The notes under the pieces: model-generated
The model's database searches: none
Told to the model about the DNA's origin: nothing
The model's input: only the letters and a program-made list of their open reading frames with translations
Assembly: GCA_946481465.1 (NCBI GenBank)
Contig: CAMLOC010000060.1
Span: 1-10,368 of the forward strand
DNA length: 10,368 nucleotides
From: an uncultured Shinella sp.
Lineage (GTDB): Bacteria > Pseudomonadota > Alphaproteobacteria > Rhizobiales > Rhizobiaceae
Direction of reading: 5' to 3'
In this document: positions 382 through 10,368 of the stretch, piece after piece
Layout: every line of letters begins with the position of its first letter
Position numbering within the stretch: the first letter of the stretch is position 1
Position numbers and translations under genes: made by a program

Positions 382-1086
382 TTAGGCGGCGTTGCGGGTC
401 ATCCGGCGGATCGCGGCCCAGAGTAGGGCATGCAGGCCGGCCATCGCGGCCTCGCAGGCCGCGGCATCTTCGGCTTCCAGAGCAGCGAGCAGGTTTTCGA
501 AGGATTTCAATGCCTCCGAGGCGGAGCCATCCGGCAGGGTGCCTTCGAAAGGCAGAAAGAGTTCGGCAAGGCCATCCTCGATGGCGCGGGCAAGCAGGGG
601 ATTTTGCGAGGCGTCGCCGAGGGCGAGCAGGAACAGGGCCTCGGCCTGCTTGCGCTGGGGAGCGGTCAGCGCTGAATGCATCATGTCCGTCGCCTGGCGC
701 AGGCGCTTGAGATCCCCCGTGCCACGCCGGGCGGCGGCGAGGCGGGCGGCGGCGAGCTGGTTGACGGTCAGAAACTCCACCACGCGCATGGCGGCGGCCG
801 GCGCGCGCGACATCCGGCGGCGCGCAAGCTGGGTCAGGCGGTCCTCATCGGTGACGAAGGCGCCGCCCTGGGCGCCGCGGCGCACCGTGATGTACTGGTT
901 GGTTTCAAGCACGCGCAGGGCTTCGCGCAGTGTCACGCGGCTGATGCCGAACTTGTCGGAAAGCTGCCTTTCGGCCGGCAGGCGCTCGGCGGGCAAGAGC
1001 AGCCCGGCATGAATCTGCCGGCGCAGCAGATCGACGGCAAGCCCGTGGGCCGCTTGCGGCTCGACCGGTCTCAGTCCCCAGAGCAC
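382..1086 (-). CDS. GntR/FadR-family transcriptional regulator
   Basis: A 234-residue regulator with an N-terminal winged helix-turn-helix (about 17-80) and a helical FCD-type effector domain (about 95-230). The HTH is the classic GntR signature, LPAERQLSDKFGISRVTLREA spread over residues 36-56, with the wing at RRGAQGG (69-75). In the effector domain the segment EALFLLALGDASQNPLL (149-165) aligns with the usual D-x2-F-H...ASGNPLL helix, but the metal-binding Asp is Glu149 and the His is Leu153. The next ligand His appears to be Phe196, so the metal site looks lost. The start is a GTG three bases after the upstream SDR stop with no clear ribosome binding site, suggesting translational coupling. 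It probably controls both flanking SDR genes through the two matching palindromes. The effector is unknown. Confidence 0.9.
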   Translation of the reverse strand: MLWGLRPVEPQAAHGLAVDLLRRQIHAGLLLPAERLPAERQLSDKFGISRVTLREALRVLETNQYITVRRGAQGGAFVTDEDRLTQLARRRMSRAPAAAMRVVEFLTVNQLAAARLAAARRGTGDLKRLRQATDMMHSALTAPQRKQAEALFLLALGDASQNPLLARAIEDGLAELFLPFEGTLPDGSASEALKSFENLLAALEAEDAAACEAAMAGLHALLWAAIRRMTRNAA

Positions 1087-1089
1087 GGG

Positions 1090-1854
1090 TCAGACCGCCG
1101 TGAACGTGTTGTCGACGAAAAGCTCCGCGCCGTTGACGAAGCTCGACGCATCCGAGGCCAGAAACAGCGCGACCTCGGCGACCTCCTCCGGCTCGCAGAT
1201 GCGGCCCTGCATGGCATTGACGTCATTTTCCGACGCAAAGACCCCGTAGCTGCGCAATTGTTCGATCTCATGCTCACCATGCTGGGTGCGGACAAAACTC
1301 GGGCAGATCAGGTTGGACCGGATCCCCTGGTCTCGATACTCGACCGCCAATGCGCGGGCAAGTTGATGCATGGCGGATTTCGACGCGCAATAGAGCGCTT
1401 CCAGGTGCGTCGCCGCACGCACGCCGGTCGTCGAGGTGAAGATCAGCACGCCCTTGCCGCGTTCCAGCATCTCCGGCAGCACGAGCCGCGACATCAGGAA
1501 GGCCGACTTGGCATTGTTGTCCATCAGTTCGTCCCATTCCTCCAGCGTGCATTCGAGGAAGGGCTTCACGATGATGATGCCGGCATGGTTGAACAGGATA
1601 TCGACCTGGCCAAAGGCTTCCCGCGCGGCAAGGTAGGCGCGCTCGGCCTCGTCCGGTCTGGAAACGTCGGCCTGCACGAAGCGCACGTCGAGATTGCGCG
1701 CGGAAAGCCTGGCGATCAAAAGCTCGGCCGCGACCGCGTCTCGGTCGGCGATCATCACCCGTGCGCCCTCTTCCGCAAACAGCGTCGCGCTTGCCGCTCC
1801 GGCGCCCTTGGCGCCACCCGTAATGAGGACCGACTTTTTTGACAGGCGTTTCAT
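1090..1854 (-). CDS. SDR-family NAD(P)-dependent oxidoreductase
   Basis: A complete 254-residue classical short-chain dehydrogenase/reductase. Visible are the cofactor motif TGGAKGAG (12-19), Asp37 after beta-2 (NAD preference), an NHAG segment (89-92, the usual NNAG), Asn in MDNN (111-114), Ser141, and catalytic Tyr155 with Lys159 in YCASK. The C-terminal PEEVAEVALFLASD and NGAELFVD segments are typical of the family. Such enzymes oxidise or reduce a hydroxyl/carbonyl on small metabolites; in sugar-acid pathways they often oxidise a keto-deoxy acid, but nothing here fixes the substrate. It is the first gene of an operon with the FadR-type regulator. The ATG at 1854-1852 lies inside an operator-like palindrome and has no ribosome binding site; the nearest upstream in-frame stop is ten codons away with no ATG, GTG or TTG between. 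A leaderless message is plausible. Confidence 0.93.
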   Translation of the reverse strand: MKRLSKKSVLITGGAKGAGAASATLFAEEGARVMIADRDAVAAELLIARLSARNLDVRFVQADVSRPDEAERAYLAAREAFGQVDILFNHAGIIIVKPFLECTLEEWDELMDNNAKSAFLMSRLVLPEMLERGKGVLIFTSTTGVRAATHLEALYCASKSAMHQLARALAVEYRDQGIRSNLICPSFVRTQHGEHEIEQLRSYGVFASENDVNAMQGRICEPEEVAEVALFLASDASSFVNGAELFVDNTFTAV

Positions 1855-1951: not shown

Positions 1952-2845
1952 TTATACGAGGCAATTCATCTCTGTCAGCGTATCGCTGACACATTCGACA
2001 AGCGCGCGGGCAGGCAGCGACAGCGGGCCTGATCGATGAACGATAAAGATCGCCACCGGTTCGACGGGAGGAAACGTCTCCAGAAGCTTCAGGCGACCGG
2101 ACTGGATGCTGCTTTCGATCATCGGCGTAGAGAGAATGCCGACGCCGGTTCCCGCCTCGATCATCTGAGCCTGTACCGCGACGCTTGAGCAGATATCCAG
2201 ATGGGCCGGCTGGGCACCTTCCGAAGCAAACCAGCGCACGACCTGCCGATAGCCTATCGTGCCTGGCTGGTTGCTGATGATCCGCGTCTTGACGAGGCTG
2301 CCGGGCGTCACAGGGGTCGCAAGTTCGAACGTCGAGGACGCAACCCAGGATGTCGGCTGCGAGCCGAGGTAAACATAGGTAAACCCTTCGACCTCGCGCG
2401 GCTCGACAAGGAAAGCCAGATCGATCTGGCTGTTATGCAGCGACGGCTCGATCGAGGAGCTCGTGGCAATAGTGAATTCCGGATGCACATCGGGATAGCT
2501 GCGATGCAGCCTGTCGACAATCTGCGGCAGGCAGGCAAGAGCGAGCCCTTCGGCAAAGCCAACCTTAACGTTTCCCGCCACGTTTGCCGAGGCGGCCGAA
2601 CCGAGCGCATCAACAGCGTCCAGCACGTCCCGCGCATTGCGCAACAGCTCGCGCGCTTTCTGTGTCATCCGGAGTTTGCGTCCGGATCGCTCGAACAGTT
2701 TGTCGCCTATTGCGCTCTCGAATTCCCTGAGGCGCAGCGAAACCGCCGGCTGGGAAAGCGCCAGCCTGTCTGCCGCCTTCTGCACGGAGCCGAGGGTTGC
2801 AATCCAGTAAAAGGCTTCGATCTGTTGAACGGTGGGGCGAACCAT
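1952..2845 (-). CDS. LysR-family transcriptional regulator
   Basis: A 297-residue protein, the normal LysR length. The N-terminal winged HTH (about 3-62) shows the LysR pattern: TVQQIEAFYWIATLGSVQKAA, LSQPAVSLRLREFE and LFERSGRKLRMT. The periplasmic-binding-like effector domain (about 92-295) starts at NVKVGFAEGLA. It is transcribed away from the enolase-superfamily/TRAP operon, with about 90 bases between the start codons. That is the standard arrangement in which a LysR protein activates the divergent operon in response to its substrate and represses itself, so it most likely controls import and first-step catabolism of the TRAP substrate. ATG at 2845-2843; the ribosome binding site is weak (AAGAAA). 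The coinducer cannot be predicted. Confidence 0.93.
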   Translation of the reverse strand: MVRPTVQQIEAFYWIATLGSVQKAADRLALSQPAVSLRLREFESAIGDKLFERSGRKLRMTQKARELLRNARDVLDAVDALGSAASANVAGNVKVGFAEGLALACLPQIVDRLHRSYPDVHPEFTIATSSSIEPSLHNSQIDLAFLVEPREVEGFTYVYLGSQPTSWVASSTFELATPVTPGSLVKTRIISNQPGTIGYRQVVRWFASEGAQPAHLDICSSVAVQAQMIEAGTGVGILSTPMIESSIQSGRLKLLETFPPVEPVAIFIVHRSGPLSLPARALVECVSDTLTEMNCLV

Positions 2846-2858
2846 TTGGATTTCTTAT

Positions 2859-2890
2859 ATCAAAAGCACCAAAAATCAAATTAGACCAAG
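2859..2890. promoter_or_regulatory. Tandem A-rich repeats in the LysR/enolase divergent region
   Basis: The divergent gap has two imperfect, directly repeated units: ATCAAA at 2859-2864 and again at 2875-2880, each followed by ACCAA (2868-2872 and 2885-2889). The region is markedly A-rich against its surroundings. These are candidate contact points for the LysR protein or promoter elements; no convincing T-N11-A dyad or consensus promoter was found, so the assignment is tentative. Confidence 0.3.
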
Positions 2891-2937
2891 CTATGCAAAT
2901 GTATTACTCCACGCTTCAAACGGGAGATTTGCAGACA

Positions 2938-4083
2938 GTGGCCAGTATCATCAAAGCCATAGAGGCTTTTACCCTAACCTGTGACATGCAGGAGCCGGTA
3001 GGCAACGCCCGTGGGACGTTCGCCACGCGTACAGCGCTGCTGGTCCGTCTCCTCACGGAGGACGGCCATGTCGGCTGGGGAGAAAGCTGGGCCTACCCCG
3101 ATGCGGTCGGCCAGATCATCCGCTCGCGGCTCGGCCCGGCGCTGATTGGCGCTGACGTAACCCTGCCTGGCGCGGCCATCGACCGCCTGTTCGGTTTCGC
3201 AGTGCAGGATCGTCGTGGCCTTCATCACATGGCGATCAGCGCACTCGACATCGCGGTCTGGGACGCCTTCGGCCGGGTTACCGGGCGCCCGATCCACGCG
3301 CTCCTCGGCGGGGCGCGGCGCGAGCGCGTGCCGGCCTATGCAAGCGGCCCGTTGCTGCTTCCCAACAACCCCTATGCGAACCTGGAAAGCGCGCTGGCGA
3401 GCTACGTGAAACAGGGTTTCCGTGCCTACAAGCTGCGCATCGGCATCGACAGGGAAAGCGACCTCGCGGCGCTACGCAAGGCGCGTGAGATCATCGGCCC
3501 CGACGCAATGCTGATGGCCGACATGAACGAAGCGAGCACTGTCAAGGAAGCCGTCGCCATTGTGGAGGCCGCGCGGGAGATCGGGCTATCCTGGCTTGAA
3601 GAACCTGTTCCGCACGACAATTTCCCTGCCTATGCACAGCTTGCCCGGCAATTGCCGGTTCCGCTTTCCGGCGGTGAATCGCTTTACGGTTTGGCCGCCT
3701 TCCGGGATGTCCTCGTTCAGGGCGGGCTTGAAATCGTCCAGCCCGATCTGGCGCTGTGCGGCGGATTCGGCGAGGCGCGCAAGATCGCCGCGCTGGCCGA
3801 AGCCTTTGGAGTTCCGACCGTCCCTCATGTCTGGGGCGCGGGAGTCAACTATCTCGCTGCGTTGCATTTTACGTCGACCCTGCCTGCCCAGCGGGTCGGG
3901 CGCTTCACATTCCCGCTGCATGAAGTCGACGTCGGCTACAATCCGCTACGATCCTGCATGGTCGATATCGATCTCGATGCCGACGGAAAGCTGGCGGTGC
4001 CCCAGGGACCTGGCCTTGGCGTGGATATCCAGGTGTCTCAATTCGAGGCGTTCATTGTCGATCGCTGGACGATCGGCTCTTAA
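2938..4083 (+). CDS. Enolase-superfamily enzyme, mandelate racemase subgroup (probable acid-sugar dehydratase or racemase)
   Basis: From the GTG at 2938 the protein has 381 residues: an N-terminal capping domain (about 5-130) and a TIM barrel (about 135-360). Metal ligands are Asp195 (MADMNE), Glu221 (WLEEP) and Glu247 (GGES). The His-Asp dyad is His297 (VPH) and Asp270 (VQPD), the same numbers as in mandelate racemase. The barrel strand-2 motif is KLR (165-167) rather than KxK, so the second-lysine base is an arginine. Members of this superfamily abstract the proton alpha to a carboxylate; His297 alone would favour beta-elimination from an acid sugar over racemisation (inference). GTG 2938 has GGGAG 11 bases upstream, and the conserved fold starts right after it; upstream in-frame ATGs at 2893 and 2899 lack ribosome binding sites. 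It heads the TRAP operon, so its substrate is probably the imported one. Confidence 0.88.
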   Translation: MASIIKAIEAFTLTCDMQEPVGNARGTFATRTALLVRLLTEDGHVGWGESWAYPDAVGQIIRSRLGPALIGADVTLPGAAIDRLFGFAVQDRRGLHHMAISALDIAVWDAFGRVTGRPIHALLGGARRERVPAYASGPLLLPNNPYANLESALASYVKQGFRAYKLRIGIDRESDLAALRKAREIIGPDAMLMADMNEASTVKEAVAIVEAAREIGLSWLEEPVPHDNFPAYAQLARQLPVPLSGGESLYGLAAFRDVLVQGGLEIVQPDLALCGGFGEARKIAALAEAFGVPTVPHVWGAGVNYLAALHFTSTLPAQRVGRFTFPLHEVDVGYNPLRSCMVDIDLDADGKLAVPQGPGLGVDIQVSQFEAFIVDRWTIGS

Positions 4084-4101: not shown

Positions 4102-5070
4102 ATGAAGAAACAGCTTATCGGATCGGTGTTCGCGCTTATCCTTGGCGCCGGACTGGCACAGGCCCAGACGGTCCTCAATCTTGGCTTTATCGGCGGCCCT
4201 GCAGCACCGGAATCCATTGGCCTTGGCCAGTTTGCCGAAGAGATCGCGGAACGCACGGAAGGTCGCTACAAGATCCAGTTGCACGGCGCCGGCGCACTGG
4301 GTGGCGACCGCGATGTCGTTGAGGGCGTGCAGTTCGGCACGGTGGACATGACGATTTCCTCGACTGCGGTCGTTGCGAACTTCGCTCCGGAATTCGCCGT
4401 GTTCGACGTGCCCTTCCTGTTTCGCGACTTCAATCACGCCCAGGCGGTTTTTGATGGTCCGGTCGGGCAGGAAATTCTCGCTAGCTTGCCGGATGCAGGC
4501 TTTGTCGGCCTTGCTGCCGGCGGCATCGGGTTCCGTCAGTTGACGAACAACGTTCGTCCCGTAACCAGCGTGGCGGATGTTGCGGGCCTCAAAATCCGAA
4601 CCCAGCAGAACGACCTCCACCTGCAGGCATGGGAAGCCCTCGGCGCATTGCCGACGCCGATGGCCGTCACCGAGGTTTATTCGGCCCTCCAGCAGGGCGT
4701 CGTGGACGGACAGGAAAACCCGATCGGCGCGATCCTCAACAATCGCTTCGGTGAAGTTCAGAAATACATGAGCATCACCGACCATGCATTCACACCGGTC
4801 GTCATTCTGATCAATCCCGGCGTCTATGACGGTCTTAGCGATACCGACAAACAGATCTTCCGGGAGGCCGCGGTACACGCAATGGCCCGCACAAAGGCCG
4901 AAGTCGAAAAGATCCAGCAAACCGGGCTCGACGATCTGCGCAAGCTCGGTGTCGAGATATTGACCGAAGTCGATGGCCAGAGCTTCCGCGACAAGCTTGA
5001 GCCGACCTTCGCCAAACTGGCGGAACGCTTTGGCGCGCGCCTCGACGCCATTCGCAGTGTCGGGCAATGA
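4102..5070 (+). CDS. dctP: TRAP transporter substrate-binding protein, DctP family
   Basis: A 322-residue periplasmic solute receptor with a clear Sec signal peptide: MKK, a hydrophobic core, and probable cleavage after AQA at residue 21. The mature protein has the DctP hallmarks: Arg145 in GFRQLT, Arg166 in KIRTQQN (the residue that in this family pairs with the ligand carboxylate), the PTPMAVTEVYSALQQGVVDGQENP stretch in two runs over 184-207, and Asn206. It therefore binds an organic acid and passes it to the membrane subunits; which acid cannot be read from the sequence. A GGGAGG ribosome binding site (4089-4094) lies seven bases before the ATG, 18 bases after the enolase-superfamily gene. 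Its stop overlaps the start of the next gene (ATGA). The symbol is used for the family only; the substrate need not be a C4-dicarboxylate. Confidence 0.95.
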   Translation: MKKQLIGSVFALILGAGLAQAQTVLNLGFIGGPAAPESIGLGQFAEEIAERTEGRYKIQLHGAGALGGDRDVVEGVQFGTVDMTISSTAVVANFAPEFAVFDVPFLFRDFNHAQAVFDGPVGQEILASLPDAGFVGLAAGGIGFRQLTNNVRPVTSVADVAGLKIRTQQNDLHLQAWEALGALPTPMAVTEVYSALQQGVVDGQENPIGAILNNRFGEVQKYMSITDHAFTPVVILINPGVYDGLSDTDKQIFREAAVHAMARTKAEVEKIQQTGLDDLRKLGVEILTEVDGQSFRDKLEPTFAKLAERFGARLDAIRSVGQ

Positions 5071-5576
5071 CCGCGCCGCGCCTGCAACAACTGTTTCTCG
5101 AGGGAGAGCGCCGGCTGAACAGGCTGGTGCTCGCCCTGGCGGCTCTCATGCTGGCTGTCGCGGCCGGCGCGGGCCTGTTTCAGGTCTTCAGCCGATTCGT
5201 CCTGAAATTGCCCGCTCATTGGTCGGAGCCGACCATCAAGATGACGCTGATCTGGATGGTCTATCTTGGGCTTATGGCCGGTGCGCGCACCGGCACGATG
5301 ATTGCGGTCGACTTCCTGATTGAGAGAGCATCTGGCCGCCTGCGCTCGATCATGGACCTGCTGGTCCTGACATCAATGCTCATCGTGTTCCTGCTCCTGC
5401 TCTATTACGGGTGGCGCGCCGTCTACATGGTCAGAAATCAGACCATAGCCGGCCTTGGCCTTTCGGCAGCCTGGGTTTACTCGGCCATCCCAATAGGCGC
5501 AGGTTTCGCAGCACTTGCGGCCATTGCGCACTTCATCGACCCCCACAAAAAAACAGACAGCGCCGAAGCGCTTTGA
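5067..5576 (+). CDS. dctQ: TRAP transporter small membrane subunit, DctQ family
   Basis: A 169-residue inner-membrane protein with four predicted transmembrane helices at about 19-40, 56-74, 95-117 and 134-156, the standard DctQ topology. The family's conserved W-x-E turn after helix 1 is present (WSE, 52-54), as is AGARTG-TMIAVDFL after helix 2. It supports the large DctM subunit in Na+- or H+-driven uptake of the acid delivered by the binding protein. The start overlaps the dctP stop by four bases (ATGA), indicating translational coupling. The C-terminus is a short charged cytoplasmic tail (PHKKTDSAEAL). Confidence 0.95.
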   Translation: MTAPRLQQLFLEGERRLNRLVLALAALMLAVAAGAGLFQVFSRFVLKLPAHWSEPTIKMTLIWMVYLGLMAGARTGTMIAVDFLIERASGRLRSIMDLLVLTSMLIVFLLLLYYGWRAVYMVRNQTIAGLGLSAAWVYSAIPIGAGFAALAAIAHFIDPHKKTDSAEAL

Positions 5577-5588
5577 TCCGAGGGCGTC

Positions 5589-6851
5589 ATGCTACCTTTG
5601 ATGATATCGACGATGACGCTGTTCATGCTCATCGGCATCCCCGTTGCCGTCGCGATCGGGCTGTCCAGCCTGCTCGGCATTGGCGTGTTTACCAGCCTTC
5701 CCATGGTGTTGTTCCCGCAGCAGGCATTTGTCGCGCTGGACAAGTTTCCACTTGCGGCAATCCCGTTCTTCATCTTCGCGGGAAACCTCATGGCGGCAGG
5801 CGGCATCTCGCGCCGCTTGGTCGCGCTGGTCGAAAGCTGCGTTCATTCGATACGCGGCGGCATTCTGCTGACCTGCATCTTCACGGCGTTGATCTTCGGC
5901 GCCGTCTCCGGCTCAAGCGTCGCGACCACACTGGCGATCGGCGCCGTCCTGATCCCGGCAATGGTGAAGCGAGGCTATCCGGTCGGTTTTGCCGCTGCCT
6001 TGCAGGCCACTGCCGCCGAACTCTCCGTCCTTGTGCCCCCGTCCATCCCGATGATCATCTACGGCCTGTCGGCAAACGTCTCGGTGGGCGACCTCTTTCT
6101 TGCCGGTATCGGCCCAGGCATTCTGGTGGCCATAGCACTCACCATCTTCGTGCTGGTTTATACCCGCTGGAAGGGTTTCGTCGAAGTGAAATCATCGACG
6201 CGCCCACCGTTTCTGCCCGCGCTGCGGAGTGCGAGCCTTGCCCTTCTCATGCCATTGATCGTCCTTGGCGGCATCTATGGCGGCGTCTTTACGCCCACGG
6301 AAGCATCCGTGGTCGCTATCGGCTACTCGCTTGTCGTGTCGCTGATCTACCGCGAGCTTGACCTGCGCGGCTTCGGCGAGGTGATAAAGAAATCGGCGAT
6401 ATCGGCATCGATCGTCATGTTTATCGTATCGATGGCCGGCGTCTTCTCTTTCGTGCTGACACGGGCGGGCGTACCGGCAGCGATCGGCGCCTGGATCGTC
6501 GAGACCTTCACCACGCCATTCGGCTTCCTGATCGCGGTGAATGTCTTCCTGTTCATCATGGGTATGTTTGTCGAAACCTCCGCATCGATCGTCGTTCTCG
6601 CCCCGATTCTGGCGCCCGTTGCCGAGCACTACGGCATCGATCCGGTCCATTTCGGCATGATCATGATCTTCAATCTGGCATTGGGCATGATAACCCCGCC
6701 GCTGGGGGTGAACCTGTTTGCTGCCTGCGCGGTTGCCAATATCGGGATCGAGAAGATGATTCCCTATCTCGTGCCACTGGTCTGCGTCATCCTCGTCTGC
6801 CTGGCTTTCGTAACCTTCGTTCCCGCAATCTCGCTGCTCTTTCTGAACTGA
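5589..6851 (+). CDS. dctM: TRAP transporter large membrane subunit, DctM family
   Basis: A 420-residue, almost entirely hydrophobic protein with about 12 transmembrane segments, the usual length for the ion-coupled transport subunit. Conserved segments are visible: PLAAIPFFIFAGNLMAAGG near residue 60, SGSSVATTLAIG near 105-120, VPPSIPMIIYG near 150-165, a second repeat with ETSASIVVLAPILAPV, and ITPPLGVNLF near the C-terminus. It completes a three-part TRAP system with the two preceding genes. The ATG follows GAGGG by a few bases, 12 bases after the dctQ stop. It is the last gene of the operon; the next gene is on the opposite strand and converges on it. Confidence 0.96.
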   Translation: MLPLMISTMTLFMLIGIPVAVAIGLSSLLGIGVFTSLPMVLFPQQAFVALDKFPLAAIPFFIFAGNLMAAGGISRRLVALVESCVHSIRGGILLTCIFTALIFGAVSGSSVATTLAIGAVLIPAMVKRGYPVGFAAALQATAAELSVLVPPSIPMIIYGLSANVSVGDLFLAGIGPGILVAIALTIFVLVYTRWKGFVEVKSSTRPPFLPALRSASLALLMPLIVLGGIYGGVFTPTEASVVAIGYSLVVSLIYRELDLRGFGEVIKKSAISASIVMFIVSMAGVFSFVLTRAGVPAAIGAWIVETFTTPFGFLIAVNVFLFIMGMFVETSASIVVLAPILAPVAEHYGIDPVHFGMIMIFNLALGMITPPLGVNLFAACAVANIGIEKMIPYLVPLVCVILVCLAFVTFVPAISLLFLN

Positions 6852-6934: not shown

Positions 6935-7852
6935 TCAAGCGTAGACGCGATCGCTGGTGCCCGCTTTCACAATATAGCCGGGAACGCCATGGCCGAGAAT
7001 GGCGGGGAGTTCGCGTGAAAGCTCAAGCATGGCCGTAAGGTCGACACCGGTGTCGATGCCGCAATGGTGGAACATGTGCACGAGGTCCTCGGTGCACACA
7101 TTCCCCGTCGCGCCGGGCGCGTAGGGGCAGCCGCCGATGCCGCCAAGCGCGGAATCGAAGCTGCGCATGCCCGCGTCATAGGCGGCAAGTGCATTGGCGA
7201 GGCCCATGTCCCGGGTGTTGTGGAGATGGAGCGTCAAGGGCAGGCCGGGATGGTGCCGGAAGATCGTGGCCGTGAGGTCGCCGACCTGCCGGGGATTGGC
7301 CATGCCGATCGTGTCGGCGATGGTGATGCCCTCGATGCCCAGGTCGCGATAAGTGTCGATCGCCCACAAGACACGCTCCACGGGCTGGCGCCCCTCGAAG
7401 GGGCAGCCGAAGGCGGTGGCGATCGTGCCGTTGATGAAGATGCCGCTTCCGGCGACCACGTTCATGATCTCCTTGAACTGGGCAAGCGACTGGTCGCAGG
7501 TCATCCGCATGTTCGCCAGGTTGTGCCGCTCCCCGATCGACATGACGAGGTTGACCTCGTCCACCGCGCATTCCAGCGCGCGCTCGGCGCCGCGCACGTT
7601 CGGCACAAGCGCCGTATAGCGCACGCCCGGCGCCCGTTCGATGCCGCGGAACACCTCTGCCGCGTCGCGAAGGTTCGGAATCGCTTTCGGCGAGACGAAG
7701 GATGACACCTCGATGCGCCGGACACCGGTCGCCGACAGGCGATCGGAAAGGCGGATCTTCTTCTCGGTCGGAACGAAATCCGGCTCGTTCTGGAAGCCGT
7801 CGCGCAGGACCACTTCGTTGATCGCTACAAAATCCGTGTTCTTCGACATCAT
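6935..7852 (-). CDS. HMG-CoA lyase family protein (hydroxymethylglutaryl-CoA lyase)
   Basis: A 305-residue DRE-TIM barrel protein. Known human HMG-CoA lyase residues Arg41, Asp42, Glu72, Asp204, His233, His235, Cys266 and Asn275 correspond to Arg17, Asp18, Glu48, Asp180, His209, His211, Cys242 and Asn251, a constant offset of 24. Family blocks RDGFQNE, FVSPKAIPN, CPFEGR, HLHNTRDMG and GGCPYAPGATGN are all present. The expected reaction is cleavage of 3-hydroxy-3-methylglutaryl-CoA to acetoacetate and acetyl-CoA, using a divalent metal in the cytoplasm; relatives cleave other 3-hydroxyacyl-CoAs such as citramalyl-CoA. The start is ATG 7852 or the adjacent ATG 7849, both just after GGGAGGAG (7863-7856); a longer reading from 7891 adds residues unlike the family. 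It diverges from an acylating aldehyde dehydrogenase across a region with paired palindromes, suggesting that its acyl-CoA substrate comes from that enzyme. Confidence 0.9.
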   Translation of the reverse strand: MMSKNTDFVAINEVVLRDGFQNEPDFVPTEKKIRLSDRLSATGVRRIEVSSFVSPKAIPNLRDAAEVFRGIERAPGVRYTALVPNVRGAERALECAVDEVNLVMSIGERHNLANMRMTCDQSLAQFKEIMNVVAGSGIFINGTIATAFGCPFEGRQPVERVLWAIDTYRDLGIEGITIADTIGMANPRQVGDLTATIFRHHPGLPLTLHLHNTRDMGLANALAAYDAGMRSFDSALGGIGGCPYAPGATGNVCTEDLVHMFHHCGIDTGVDLTAMLELSRELPAILGHGVPGYIVKAGTSDRVYA

Positions 7853-7916
7853 GCGCTCCTCCCGATTTCCTCTGTTGGCGCCAGCTAGCATGCACCTTGA
7901 AAGGTATCAATGAAAA

Positions 7917-7922
7917 TATAAT
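7917..7922 (+). promoter_or_regulatory. Perfect TATAAT -10-like box in the divergent region
   Basis: A consensus TATAAT lies in the AT-rich part of the divergent gap, abutting and partly overlapping the first palindrome (7921-7936). The only -35-like match, TTGAAA (7897-7902), is 14 bases away, which is short. The box could drive the plus-strand pair with a weak -35, or the AT-richness may reflect promoter DNA serving both directions. Confidence 0.35.
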
Positions 7923-7936
7923 CTGATACATCAGAT
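7921..7936. promoter_or_regulatory. Perfect 16-bp palindrome, candidate operator (site 1)
   Basis: ATCTGAT-AC-ATCAGAT is a perfect inverted repeat, 68 bases upstream of the HMG-CoA lyase start on one side and 109 bases before the aldehyde dehydrogenase on the other. Its core TGAT-N2-ATCA recurs at 7995-8004. No regulator gene in the window is an obvious partner; it may lie beyond the right edge. Confidence 0.6.
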
Positions 7937-7948
7937 AAAATATTTCTA

Positions 7949-7977
7949 TTGAACCCTATGCGTAGATGCCGTATGGA
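7949..7977 (+). promoter_or_regulatory. Possible promoter of the aldehyde dehydrogenase operon
   Basis: A -35 TTGAAC (7949-7954) is followed by a 17-base spacer and TATGGA (7972-7977). Spacing is ideal but the -10 matches only half of the consensus. Transcription would begin near 7985, placing palindrome site 2 (7995-8004) just downstream, in a position where a bound repressor would block elongation. Confidence 0.35.
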
Positions 7978-7994
7978 TACCGTGATGCCTTAAC

Positions 7995-8004
7995 TGATGC
8001 ATCA
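7995..8004. promoter_or_regulatory. Palindrome TGATGCATCA, candidate operator (site 2)
   Basis: A perfect 10-bp palindrome sharing the CTGAT-N-CATCA core with site 1. The centres are 71 bases apart, close to seven helical turns, which would allow a looped complex. It lies 41 bases before the aldehyde dehydrogenase ATG. Confidence 0.5.
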
Positions 8005-8019
8005 AGGCGTACAGCATGT

Positions 8020-8035
8020 GGCCGCGACCGCGGCC
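8020..8035 (+). promoter_or_regulatory. GC-only hairpin abutting the ribosome binding site
   Basis: GGCCGCG-AC-CGCGGCC is a perfect inverted repeat ending one base before the GGAGG ribosome binding site (8037-8041) of the aldehyde dehydrogenase. In the mRNA it would form a very stable short hairpin next to the 30S landing site. It could be protein-bound or modulate translation; no function is shown. Confidence 0.4.
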
Positions 8036-8045
8036 TGGAGGAACA

Positions 8046-9464
8046 ATGTCTCAGTCCGCAGATCATAGTCACATCGCAGAACTCGTTGCCCGGGCGCGCA
8101 AGGCGCAGGCGATCCTGAACGGCTACAGCCAGGAGCAGGTCGATCTGATCGCCGGCGCCATCGTCTACCATCTGTCGCGCCCCGAACTGGCCGCGAAGAT
8201 CGCCGAAATGGCCTATGACGAGACGAAGATGGGTCTTGTCGAAAGCAAGCGCGCCAAGCTCACGCACAAGATGCCGGCGATCTTCCACGACATCCGCACG
8301 GAAAAGACCGTTGGCGTCATCGATCGTGACGAGGTGAACGGCATCATCACCATCGCCAAGCCCTATGGCGTCATCGCGGCGCTCGTGCCGAGCACCAATT
8401 GCGAAGCGACGCCGATCTTCAAGTCCGTCCTGGGCATCCGCGCCCGCAATGCCGTGATCTGCGCGCCGCACCCGGCAAGCAAGAAGACCACCATCTTCGT
8501 GGTGGATGTCATCCGTCAGGTTCTTGTCGCCTGCGGCGCTCCTGAGGATCTGGTCCAGTGCATCGCCGCGCCGTCCAAGGCGCTCGCCGCCGAACTCATG
8601 GCCCAGTGCGACGTCACCATGGCGACCGGCTCGGGGGATATGGTGAATGCGGCCTATTCCTCCGGCAAGCCCGCTTATGGCGTCGGCGTCGGCAATGCCG
8701 CGGTGATCATCGACGAGACGGTCGATCTTGCGGAGACGGCGTCGAAAATCCGGATCGGCAAGACCGGCGACAATGCCTCCGGCTGCTCGGCCGAAAATTC
8801 CATCATCGTCCAGGCTTCCATCCATGACGGTTTCCTGCGCGCGCTGGAAAGGGAGGGTGCCTATATCGCAACGGCGGAGGAGAAGGCGAAGCTCCAGGCC
8901 GTCCTCTGGGAAAACGGCCACGTCTCGCGCAAGGTCGTCGCCCGCCCCGTCGGCGAGATTGCCGCGCTTGCCGGTATCGCCGTGCCGGCGGACCGCACGT
9001 TCATCGTCGTCGAGGAGGAGGGCACCGGTGCCGAGCATCCCTTCTCGGGCGAAAAGCTCAGCCTCGTCCTCACCTGCTACAAATACGAGGCCTTCGAGGA
9101 TGCCGTCGCGCTGGTGAACGCGATCACCGGCTATTCCGGCTCCGGCCATTCCTGCGGCATCCATTCCAACAACGCCGACCGCATCCTGCAGCTCGGCCTT
9201 GAGACGAAGACGTCGCGGGTCATCGTGCGCCAGCCGCACGGGGTCGCCAATTCGGGAAGCTGGTCCAACGGCCTCGCCAAGACCTTCTCGCTCGGCTGCG
9301 GAAGCTGGGGCGGGAACTCGGTTTCCGAGAACGTCACCCAGAAGCACTATTACAACACGACGCGCATTGCCGAGCCGCTCGACCGTGCCGCGCCGGATGA
9401 TGCGGCGATCTATGGTCCCCTGTTCGGGAAGATCGCCGCCGTGCGTATCGCTGCGGGAGCCTGA
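8046..9464 (+). CDS. CoA-acylating aldehyde dehydrogenase (SucD/SauS type)
   Basis: A 472-residue member of the CoA-dependent aldehyde dehydrogenases that convert an aldehyde, CoA and NAD(P)+ to an acyl-CoA. The nucleophile is Cys247 in NASGCSAE. The N-terminal YSQEQVD and KTVGVI blocks, the APHP segment (140-143), AYSSGKPAYGVGVGN (203-217), HSCGIHS (368-374) and LGCGSWGGNSVSEN (417-429) resemble recalled sequences of succinate-semialdehyde dehydrogenase SucD of Clostridium kluyveri and sulfoacetaldehyde dehydrogenase SauS. Both use carboxylate- or sulfonate-tailed aldehydes, so the substrate here is probably an acid semialdehyde. ATG 8046 has GGAGG four bases upstream; a longer reading from 8016 would run through the GC hairpin and is rejected. 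The next gene, an alcohol dehydrogenase six bases downstream, probably makes the aldehyde. With the divergent HMG-CoA lyase, mevaldate is an attractive substrate (inference). Confidence 0.9.
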   Translation: MSQSADHSHIAELVARARKAQAILNGYSQEQVDLIAGAIVYHLSRPELAAKIAEMAYDETKMGLVESKRAKLTHKMPAIFHDIRTEKTVGVIDRDEVNGIITIAKPYGVIAALVPSTNCEATPIFKSVLGIRARNAVICAPHPASKKTTIFVVDVIRQVLVACGAPEDLVQCIAAPSKALAAELMAQCDVTMATGSGDMVNAAYSSGKPAYGVGVGNAAVIIDETVDLAETASKIRIGKTGDNASGCSAENSIIVQASIHDGFLRALEREGAYIATAEEKAKLQAVLWENGHVSRKVVARPVGEIAALAGIAVPADRTFIVVEEEGTGAEHPFSGEKLSLVLTCYKYEAFEDAVALVNAITGYSGSGHSCGIHSNNADRILQLGLETKTSRVIVRQPHGVANSGSWSNGLAKTFSLGCGSWGGNSVSENVTQKHYYNTTRIAEPLDRAAPDDAAIYGPLFGKIAAVRIAAGA

Positions 9465-9470
9465 ACGACG

Positions 9471-10368
9471 ATGAAATTCGCTGTTCGTCCGCAGCTCCAC
9501 GGCTACGATACCTTCGCGGCCTTCACCGAAGCGCATGCCGTCACCGAGCGGGACCTTATCTTCACGCAACGCGTCCTTCACGACGCCTTCATGAAGGGTA
9601 CGCCGGCGCAGACCCTCTTCTACGACGATTTCTGCGGCGGAGAGCCGACGGACATCGCGGTCGACGAGATGCTGCGCGCCATCCGCAAGTTCGGCTTCGA
9701 TCGCCTGATCGCGATCGGCGGCGGCTCCATCCTGGACTGCGCGAAGGTGCTCGCGCTGGATTCGGATGAGAATGTCGCGGGCCTCTTTGCAGCCGGCGTG
9801 CAGCCGGGGCGCAAGGCGGGCCTTCTCCTGATCCCGACGACCTGCGGCACGGGCTGCGAGGTGACCTGCGTCTCGGTGTTCGACTTCCCGTCGATCGGCA
9901 GCAAGATCGGCAAGGGTTTCGATGCGGGGTTTGCCGACCATGCCATCCTGATCGACGAACTCCTGTCGAAGATCCCCTACCATGTGTTCGCCACCTCGTC
10001 GGCCGATGCCCTCGTCCATGCGCTGGAGATCTACCTGGCGCCACGGGCGAACGCCTATACGGACATGTTCTGCATGGCGGCCATCCGGTCCATCCTGCAG
10101 GGCTACATGCGCATCGTCGCGCATGGGCGGGAGGTGATCCAGCAGGATGCCAAGGCCTACCTGACGGCGAGCAACATGGCCGGCATTGCCCTTGCAAACG
10201 TCCTGGCGGGCGGCGTCCATGCGATCGCGATGCATTTCGGCAGCGCGCATCATGTGCCGCACGGCGAGGCGACGCGGCTGTTCCTGCCGCCGGTCTTCAA
10301 GATCTACTACGAGAAGGCGCCGGACGGGAAGATCGCCGACATCGCCCGATTGATCGGGGAGGTGGTCG
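9471..10368 (+). CDS. Iron-type alcohol dehydrogenase, 4-hydroxybutyrate-dehydrogenase-like (cut by window edge)
   Basis: The first 299 residues of a group III (iron-activated) alcohol dehydrogenase are present; the C-terminal tail lies beyond the right edge. The NAD-binding motif AIGGGSILDCAK (81-92) and TTCGTGCEVT (123-132) are clear. Metal ligands map to Asp179 and His183 (DALVH), His250 (GGVH) and His264 (VPHG), as in FucO (196, 200, 263, 277). FucO His267, which lies near the active site, is Met254 here. The overall pattern, including TTCGTG, SSADALVHALEIYLAPRAN and HVPHGEA, is closest to 4-hydroxybutyrate dehydrogenase among the members I can recall, so a carboxylate-bearing primary alcohol is the likely substrate. 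ATG 9471 is six bases after the aldehyde dehydrogenase stop, with GGGAG (9455-9459) inside that gene, so translation is coupled. It would supply the acid semialdehyde to its neighbour. Confidence 0.9.
   Translation, partial: MKFAVRPQLHGYDTFAAFTEAHAVTERDLIFTQRVLHDAFMKGTPAQTLFYDDFCGGEPTDIAVDEMLRAIRKFGFDRLIAIGGGSILDCAKVLALDSDENVAGLFAAGVQPGRKAGLLLIPTTCGTGCEVTCVSVFDFPSIGSKIGKGFDAGFADHAILIDELLSKIPYHVFATSSADALVHALEIYLAPRANAYTDMFCMAAIRSILQGYMRIVAHGREVIQQDAKAYLTASNMAGIALANVLAGGVHAIAMHFGSAHHVPHGEATRLFLPPVFKIYYEKAPDGKIADIARLIGEVV

Follow-up and report, generated by a model that had tools for sequence, protein, structure and literature searches.

The right-hand part of a 10,368-nucleotide stretch of DNA from an uncultured Shinella sp. 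(contig CAMLOC010000060.1, assembly GCA_946481465.1; hereafter the window) contains a gene for a carbon-carbon lyase related to 3-hydroxy-3-methylglutaryl-coenzyme A (HMG-CoA) lyase, an HMGL-family gene, that is divergent from genes for a coenzyme A (CoA)-acylating aldehyde dehydrogenase (ALDH) and an iron-containing alcohol dehydrogenase (Fe-ADH). This arrangement, proposed in an initial annotation of the sequence, is confirmed by the open reading frames, by family matches and by comparison with other Shinella. The three genes form a real, probably co-regulated cassette, best read as a variant of the CoA-ester cleavage of hydroxy acids, and we give an even chance to the more specific reading that it provides inducible catabolism of a short terminal-hydroxy 2-hydroxy acid via a malyl- or citramalyl-type CoA ester.

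We observe the gene content, linkage, conservation, operator pattern, and lyase and receptor phylogenies, and infer the direction, regulation, substrate class and products. A tripartite ATP-independent periplasmic (TRAP) transporter, encoded downstream in relatives and past the end of the window, would import a small hydroxycarboxylate ending in a primary alcohol. The Fe-ADH would oxidise the CH2OH group to an aldehyde, the ALDH would use NAD+ and CoA to turn this into a thioester, and retro-Claisen cleavage of the resulting beta-hydroxyacyl-CoA would fall to the HMGL-type lyase, with the dehydrogenase pair replacing the family III CoA-transferase of related lyase operons. Candidate substrates would be C4-chain 2-hydroxy acids (2,4-dihydroxybutyrate, its 2-methyl or 2-hydroxymethyl homologues, or pantoate), and the malyl-, citramalyl- or dimethylmalyl-type CoA ester would yield an acyl-CoA together with a 2-oxo acid, for example glyoxylate or pyruvate.

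The lyase matches the Pfam HMGL-like family at 154 bits and the broad NCBIfam subfamily PRK05692 at 316 bits (cut-off 246), and its best match in the PDB is 6nds at 339 bits, with human 2cw6 at 205 bits. It aligns without gaps to human HMG-CoA lyase over residues 9-281 with a constant offset of 24, and the metal ligands Asp42, His233, His235 and Asn275 as well as the catalytic residues tested, Arg41, Glu72 and Cys266 (human numbering), are all kept. The initial annotation had every known catalytic and metal residue in place at a constant offset; the offset and these seven residues bear this out, but the position of human Tyr167 is occupied by Thr143, and by this residue the protein would fall outside the HMG-CoA lyases of the leucine/mevalonate type. 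PMC6941031 names four residues of the human enzyme, Tyr167, Arg41, Glu72 and Cys266, as the most critical for catalysis. Threonine is found at this position in all six alphaproteobacterial cassette lyases (window included) and in each of 37 homologs from the database with 73% identity or more, one of them being the window's own entry, serine in both Halomonas cassette lyases, and 83 homologs at about 62-68% identity have threonine (60), cysteine (15), serine (6) or valine (2). Tyr167 is kept in all seven leucine-type lyases of the host genomes, in the human enzyme and in the lyases 1ydn (Brucella) and 1ydo (Bacillus), with threonine in Brucella 6nds; PMC6689899 counts the human, 1YDN, 1YDO and 2FTP lyases as the characterised family of (S)-HMG-CoA lyases. 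Five further residues (Trp81, Phe134, Ser135, Ser169 and Asp236) are invariant in the seven leucine-type bacterial lyases and altered in the window lyase, a pattern that has exceptions among the CoA-transferase-linked sequences.

In a lyase tree the eight leucine-type sequences (seven of them different) form one group with support of 100/100, only the Salinicola one having been seen in a leucine operon and the other six being classed by similarity (39-42% identity to the window lyase). The window lyase lies outside this group, among lyases linked to CoA-transferases; the tree programme warns of long branches for L049, Sker2, Pries, L042 and Parom. As judged from sequence, the window lyase is not of the leucine type and belongs to the CoA-transferase-linked subfamily.

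Seven genomic contexts of lyase relatives were viewed out of 44 plasmid records, and in all seven (42-63% identity) a family III CoA-transferase gene adjoins the lyase; these stretches also carry di-/tricarboxylate, citrate or other transporters and, in Cupriavidus, leuCD. A lyase relative of 60% identity in Salinicola likewise adjoins a family III CoA-transferase gene. None lies beside the cassette lyase in the window or in three annotated relatives, where the Fe-ADH and ALDH are found instead. Operons with a family III (CaiB/BaiF) CoA-transferase and an HMGL-like lyase, for which the prototype is the succinyl-CoA:(R)-citramalate CoA-transferase and (R)-citramalyl-CoA lyase of Chloroflexus, share with the cassette the lyase subfamily and the presumed cleavage of a beta-hydroxyacyl-CoA derived from an imported organic acid. 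Unlike them, the cassette would make its acyl-CoA from a terminal alcohol through the Fe-ADH and ALDH, with a TRAP transporter in relatives. It offers a concrete, testable set of genes for breaking down an organic acid by attaching CoA by way of a terminal alcohol rather than a carboxylate and then cleaving a carbon-carbon bond. Because Tyr167 is absent and the contexts contain CoA-transferases, the database name 'HMG-CoA lyase' is weak evidence for such genes; many database 'hydroxymethylglutaryl-CoA lyases' lack Tyr167 and lie beside CoA-transferases in the contexts viewed, and the name may misassign their substrate. Plasmid pBB2 of Cupriavidus necator N-1 (L056:4733-9024) has a CoA-transferase, an HMGL-like lyase and leuCD in a row, plausibly for citraconate/(R)-citramalate degradation.

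The lyase slot of the cassette is filled by more than one lyase clade. The ALDH and Fe-ADH of two Halomonas cassettes are 76-80% identical to those of Shinella. The lyases of these two cassettes share 66-70% identity with their counterparts in Paraburkholderia caribensis and Caballeronia zhejiangensis and 62-63% with the Mitsuaria enzyme, all CoA-transferase-linked, whereas identity to the lyases of alphaproteobacterial cassettes is 50-55% and to that of P. aromaticivorans 51-53%; in the tree they group with those CoA-transferase-linked lyases (100/99). This kinship indicates that the dehydrogenase pair has been joined to the CoA-transferase-linked subfamily at least twice, or that the lyase was swapped for another from it. 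In Halomonas urumqiensis the lyase gene shares one strand with a D-2-hydroxyacid dehydrogenase gene (64 bp apart) and two split-transketolase genes, TK1 and TK2, and the D-2-hydroxyacid dehydrogenase suggests a 2-oxo-acid product rather than acetoacetate. On plasmid pSM-1 of Skermanella mucosa (L063:10066-15610), a TRAP receptor gene whose product is 62% like the Shinella cassette receptor adjoins genes for a GntR regulator, a family III CoA-transferase, an Fe-ADH (36%), a lyase (45%) and an ALDH of the ordinary kind, not closely matched to the cassette one; apparently this cluster performs the same chemistry by an acid-plus-CoA-transferase route, as a parallel solution.

The best PDB match of the ALDH is 8cei, an acylating succinate-semialdehyde dehydrogenase by name (335 bits), and that of the Fe-ADH, as of its full-length Shinella ortholog, is 30sm, Cvir-Hbd2, a name that we read as 4-hydroxybutyrate dehydrogenase. 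The ortholog scores 85 bits against the NCBIfam 4-hydroxybutyrate dehydrogenase model NF058672, under the cut-off of 500, and the Fe-ADH shows 35-38% identity to the products of three plasmid genes that carry the annotation 4-hydroxybutyrate dehydrogenase. We favour a C4-chain acid because the nearest solved ALDH is of the succinate-semialdehyde type and the Fe-ADH relatives are named 4-hydroxybutyrate dehydrogenase. 4-Hydroxybutyrate metabolism uses the same two families, as 4-hydroxybutyrate dehydrogenase and SucD, for a 4-hydroxy acid and the corresponding semialdehyde; unlike that pathway, the cassette adds a carbon-carbon lyase, and its Fe-ADH has just the modest identity given above. Plain 4-hydroxybutyrate catabolism was rejected as incomplete, since the lyase would be without a role. 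The sulfoacetate and isethionate pathways, with their acylating sulfoacetaldehyde dehydrogenase SauS, have the ALDH family and a TRAP importer in common with the cassette, but the cassette ALDH scores 501 bits against the SauS model NF047625, under its cut-off of 600, and the annotation of three cassette stretches includes no enzyme of a sulfonate pathway, so such a pathway was also rejected; we know of no role for the lyase in these pathways. A TauE/SafE-family exporter is encoded a few kb from the Ponticoccus lyase.

The palindromes noted between the divergent genes are real. The gap between the lyase and ALDH genes contains TGATACATCA at 7924 and TGATGCATCA at 7995, a spacing of 71, and paired TGATRYATCA palindromes 70-72 bp apart occupy the same gap in eight of nine alphaproteobacterial cassettes (window included); the ninth, in Rhizobium sp. 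GN54, has a single variant copy, TGATATATCA. Neither the pair nor the variant occurs in three gammaproteobacterial cassettes, all of which carry CTGAAATKTCAG near the ALDH start, a related palindrome that is imperfect in Halomonas. Genome-wide, the strict 12-mer CTGATRYATCAG has a single occurrence, at the cassette, in three of seven host genomes, three, three and five occurrences in three others (cassette site included) and none in GN54, and a reversed control pattern gave zero occurrences in the seven genomes scanned. CTGAAATKTCAG is present once, at the ALDH gene, in two of three genomes and three times in the third (ALDH site included). Because the paired operator-like sites are shared, the lyase and dehydrogenases probably form one regulon in the alphaproteobacteria. 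A GntR regulator gene directly follows the Fe-ADH gene in relatives, and this adjacent regulator probably acts on the paired palindromes. The importer, the GntR regulator and an operator pattern shared with the lyase suggest catabolism. Fe-ADHs and acylating ALDHs are reversible, and the cassette could in principle run in reverse or in detoxification, with the Fe-ADH reducing a semialdehyde and the lyase incidental; given the nearby importer, the regulator and the operator pattern common with the lyase, we consider this highly improbable.

A TRAP transporter follows the GntR gene in most relatives. The initial annotation had pointed beyond the right edge for a transporter, a thiolase or an acetoacetate CoA-transferase; in the stretches of three annotated relatives the TRAP transporter is present, and neither a thiolase nor an acetoacetate CoA-transferase is annotated. 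The Shinella cassette receptor DctP is 78% identical to the DctP of a neighbouring split-transketolase module and 76% to a Sinorhizobium meliloti one, and the closest relatives of the DctP in the Ponticoccus cassette are DctPs from transketolase modules (64-71%), in Sulfitobacter and others. At least 18 of 24 records matching the Ponticoccus DctP (Ponticoccus aside) have a transketolase match within 8 kb, counted among 40 of 189 transketolase matches in which the other six records do not appear; one of these six, Azospirillum ramasamyi, has a transketolase pair annotated next door, and no transketolase was seen beside the Chelatococcus receptor relative in the stretch viewed. Cassette and module receptors interleave in two supported clades of a receptor tree, and its starred branches force at least three label changes, for which a single gain followed by two losses would suffice; resolution is lacking at the deep forks, where Halomonas and Skermanella are placed. 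The module receptors are spread more widely, and transfer would therefore have been from module to cassette. The kinship of the receptors suggests a sugar-acid-like ligand for the cassette. The plasmid-borne module of TRAP, short-chain dehydrogenase/reductase (SDR) and split-transketolase genes is itself recurrent (L002:24501-27417, L023, L024, L064, L065, L066 and L068), in some cases with a TIM barrel, a DhaL-type kinase and a threonate/tartronate-semialdehyde-type dehydrogenase, and looks like a sugar-acid pathway.

Transketolase genes lie within about 10 kb of the cassette in seven of 12 host species (S. sumterensis, S. oryzae, Shinella H4-D48, R. subbaraonis, GN54, Szabonella and H. urumqiensis) and were not found in the stretch searched for four (Ponticoccus, Salipiger mucosus, Salinicola and H. 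cupida), with the twelfth, R. rhizolycopersici, in neither count. In Szabonella, the genes for the lyase, TK1, TK2 and SDR are on one strand and face those for the ALDH, Fe-ADH, GntR and TRAP. Together with the interleaved receptors, this linkage would fit a single pathway in which the SDR oxidises a 3-deoxyaldonate-like acid, transketolase takes a two-carbon piece off the ketol acid so formed, the ALDH and lyase finish with the semialdehyde acid that is left, and the Fe-ADH handles the matching 4-hydroxy acid. However, the module also occurs without the cassette in stretches viewed, four hosts have no transketolase in the stretch searched, and in three Shinella stretches of 27 kb TGATRYATCA marks the cassette alone and is absent from the module; we regard a single pathway as distinctly unlikely. 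An undescribed route for a saccharinic-type (3-deoxyaldonate-like) acid, with the TRAP transporter, SDR, split transketolase, ALDH and an HMGL-type malyl-CoA lyase leading to acetyl-CoA and glyoxylate and the Fe-ADH feeding in a 4-hydroxy acid, seems rather improbable.

Pantoate, one member of the substrate class favoured above, is a common natural 4-hydroxy-2-hydroxy acid, and would pass through 4-oxopantoate and 3,3-dimethylmalyl-CoA to isobutyryl-CoA and glyoxylate. Structures of related TRAP receptors are reported to hold pantoate or erythronate (PMC11668362 and PMC5812351). Set against this, the three cassette stretches with annotation list no gene of the pantothenate or valine pathways, the structure that best matches the receptor (4p47) is ligand-free, and the transketolase link would be left without explanation, and we find pantoate in particular quite improbable.

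The initial annotation proposed a different substrate, mevalonate, which the Fe-ADH would oxidise to mevaldate, the ALDH convert to HMG-CoA and the lyase split to acetoacetate and acetyl-CoA, independently of HMG-CoA reductase. Part of this proposal holds: the sequence from alcohol to aldehyde, acyl-CoA and carbon-carbon cleavage is a good fit to the gene set, and an exact one for mevalonate, and the three genes form one module with a shared operator pattern and no HMG-CoA reductase gene. The window contains no such gene, and in the suggested check for hosts lacking it the reductase (PF00368, cassette hosts only) is absent from six of eight host genomes and lies away from the cassette in the other two. 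What is not upheld is mevalonate or HMG-CoA as the specific substrate, for Tyr167 and Trp81 are both missing from the lyase, which groups with the CoA-transferase-linked subfamily and not with the leucine-type clade, and the transporter is akin to those of sugar-acid-like modules, its receptors interleaving with theirs. In the degradative mevalonate pathway a class II HMG-CoA reductase, MvaA, acts with the HMG-CoA lyase MvaB, as in Pseudomonas mevalonii. Both systems could plausibly rely on TRAP import and on a lyase of the HMGL family; unlike that pathway, the cassette has no reductase and a lyase of another clade.

Away from its cassette, the Salipiger mucosus genome also encodes a degradative HMG-CoA reductase (432 bits, cut-off 260), whose gene stands in line with those for an SDR, DctM, DctQ and DctP (L028:9588-14617). 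From the family name this cluster would degrade mevalonate, and it is a good candidate for a TRAP-fed classical mevalonate pathway. The best solved relatives of its receptor are sorbitol/mannitol-named and ketoacid-binding receptors; it has no BLAST match to the Ponticoccus, Szabonella and Salipiger cassette receptors, is 24-25% identical to the Shinella and H. cupida ones, and differs in class from the cassette receptor of the same genome. This separate, dissimilar system also argues against mevalonate as the cassette substrate. The second reductase, in Szabonella alba (L027:9287-13903), is beside UbiA prenyltransferase-type, sulfotransferase and P450 genes, possibly an isoprenoid biosynthesis cluster in an alphaproteobacterium.

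Several observations weigh against the malyl-type reading that we prefer. In Salinicola halimionae the ALDH, Fe-ADH and GntR genes follow, on the same strand and after about 0.4 kb, a gene for HMG-CoA lyase (470 bits) that ends a methylcrotonyl-CoA-carboxylase-like (leucine) operon. This neighbourhood favours HMG-CoA, and by a rough reckoning made after the fact (about four flanking slots among some 3700 genes, at an assumed gene density) it is unlikely to have arisen by chance. However, an operator-like site and a GntR gene of its own accompany the Salinicola unit, and the 60% relative of the cassette lyase is encoded elsewhere in the genome; overall we judge the mevalonate route unlikely. 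Were it true, it would be a reductase-free mevalonate pathway. Also to be counted are that the Halomonas paralog L049 matches neither residue pattern, that the D-2-hydroxyacid dehydrogenase was seen in one cassette only, and that the ligand of a TRAP receptor is not readable from its sequence, the best solved match here being without ligand. Lastly, the kinship with the Chloroflexus (R)-citramalyl-CoA lyase, an HMGL-family enzyme encoded beside a family III CoA-transferase, is a presumed one. PMC8307300 supports only the names and Enzyme Commission numbers of the Chloroflexus enzymes.

The lyase, ALDH, Fe-ADH and GntR genes are found together in Shinella, Rhizobium, Ponticoccus, Salipiger, Szabonella and Halomonas cupida. 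The lyase/ALDH/Fe-ADH block has 84-86% DNA identity in four Shinella plasmid records, and its ALDH/Fe-ADH part 81% in Ponticoccus alexandrii; the Fe-ADH is 94-95% identical in Shinella, R. subbaraonis and R. rhizolycopersici. A genome scan gave 11 loci, nine with close orthologs (77-95% identity) and two with distant Fe-ADHs. ALDH orthologs, counted with each seed genome included and at E-value limits of 1e-120 to 1e-150, are present in two of 199 Rhizobiaceae genomes (at least 94% identity; two further matches at 42-43% not counted), in 1/394 genomes of the Szabonella family and 3/201 of the Salinicola family, in 1/18 Salinicola, 2/21 Shinella and 1/20 Salipiger, and in 1/385 at class level. 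This rare and patchy occurrence looks like that of a horizontally moving cassette. The two halves of the window were matched together in none of nine matching plasmid records. No published description of the cassette, or of a mevalonate TRAP receptor, was found in a literature search limited to open-licence papers.

The features of the window are listed below. The lyase start is the ATG at 7852 by comparison with Shinella, though an in-frame upstream start would extend it to 7891, and the ALDH start at 8046 is that of the equivalent annotated Shinella gene, with an upstream ATG at 8016. The Fe-ADH gene is truncated by the right edge of the window, and its full length is taken from relatives only.

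Features of the window and the basis for each assignment
Feature	Coordinates	Strand	Basis
GntR regulator	382-1086	-	window
SDR	1090-1854	-	window
LysR	1952-2845	-	window
Enolase-superfamily dehydratase-like gene	about 2884-4083	+	window
TRAP DctP/DctQ/DctM	4102-6851	+	window
HMGL-like C-C lyase, CoA-transferase-linked subfamily	6935-7852	-	Pfam, NCBIfam, PDB matches, tree
CoA-acylating ALDH, SucD/SauS-like	8046-9464	+	NCBIfam, PDB matches
Fe-ADH, 4-hydroxybutyrate-dehydrogenase-like	9471->10368	+	Pfam PF00465/PF25137; PDB match
Operator-like palindrome 1, CTGATACATCAG	7923..7934	.	paired palindromes in related cassettes
Operator-like palindrome 2, CTGATGCATCAA	7994..8005	.	71 bp from palindrome 1

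The window's own TRAP operon is not taken by default as the cassette importer: its receptor resembles those of the cassette and of the transketolase modules at a level of only 27-38%, and its genes are grouped with the dehydratase gene. The window ends before the GntR/TRAP position seen in relatives, and for this strain the operon is a possible importer. Its receptor is closest to 4nq8, 4pdd and 4pdh, which we take to be pantoate- or erythronate-bound receptors. Here the LysR gene is divergent from an arabinonate-dehydratase-like gene (score under cut-off) and the DctPQM genes, and the region reads as a second operon for small-acid uptake and dehydration, convergent with the lyase gene. The GntR and SDR pair at the left of the window has about 78-86% DNA identity to plasmids of Shinella zoogloeoides and Rhizobium leguminosarum, and in those two plasmids it is unlinked to the window's right half.

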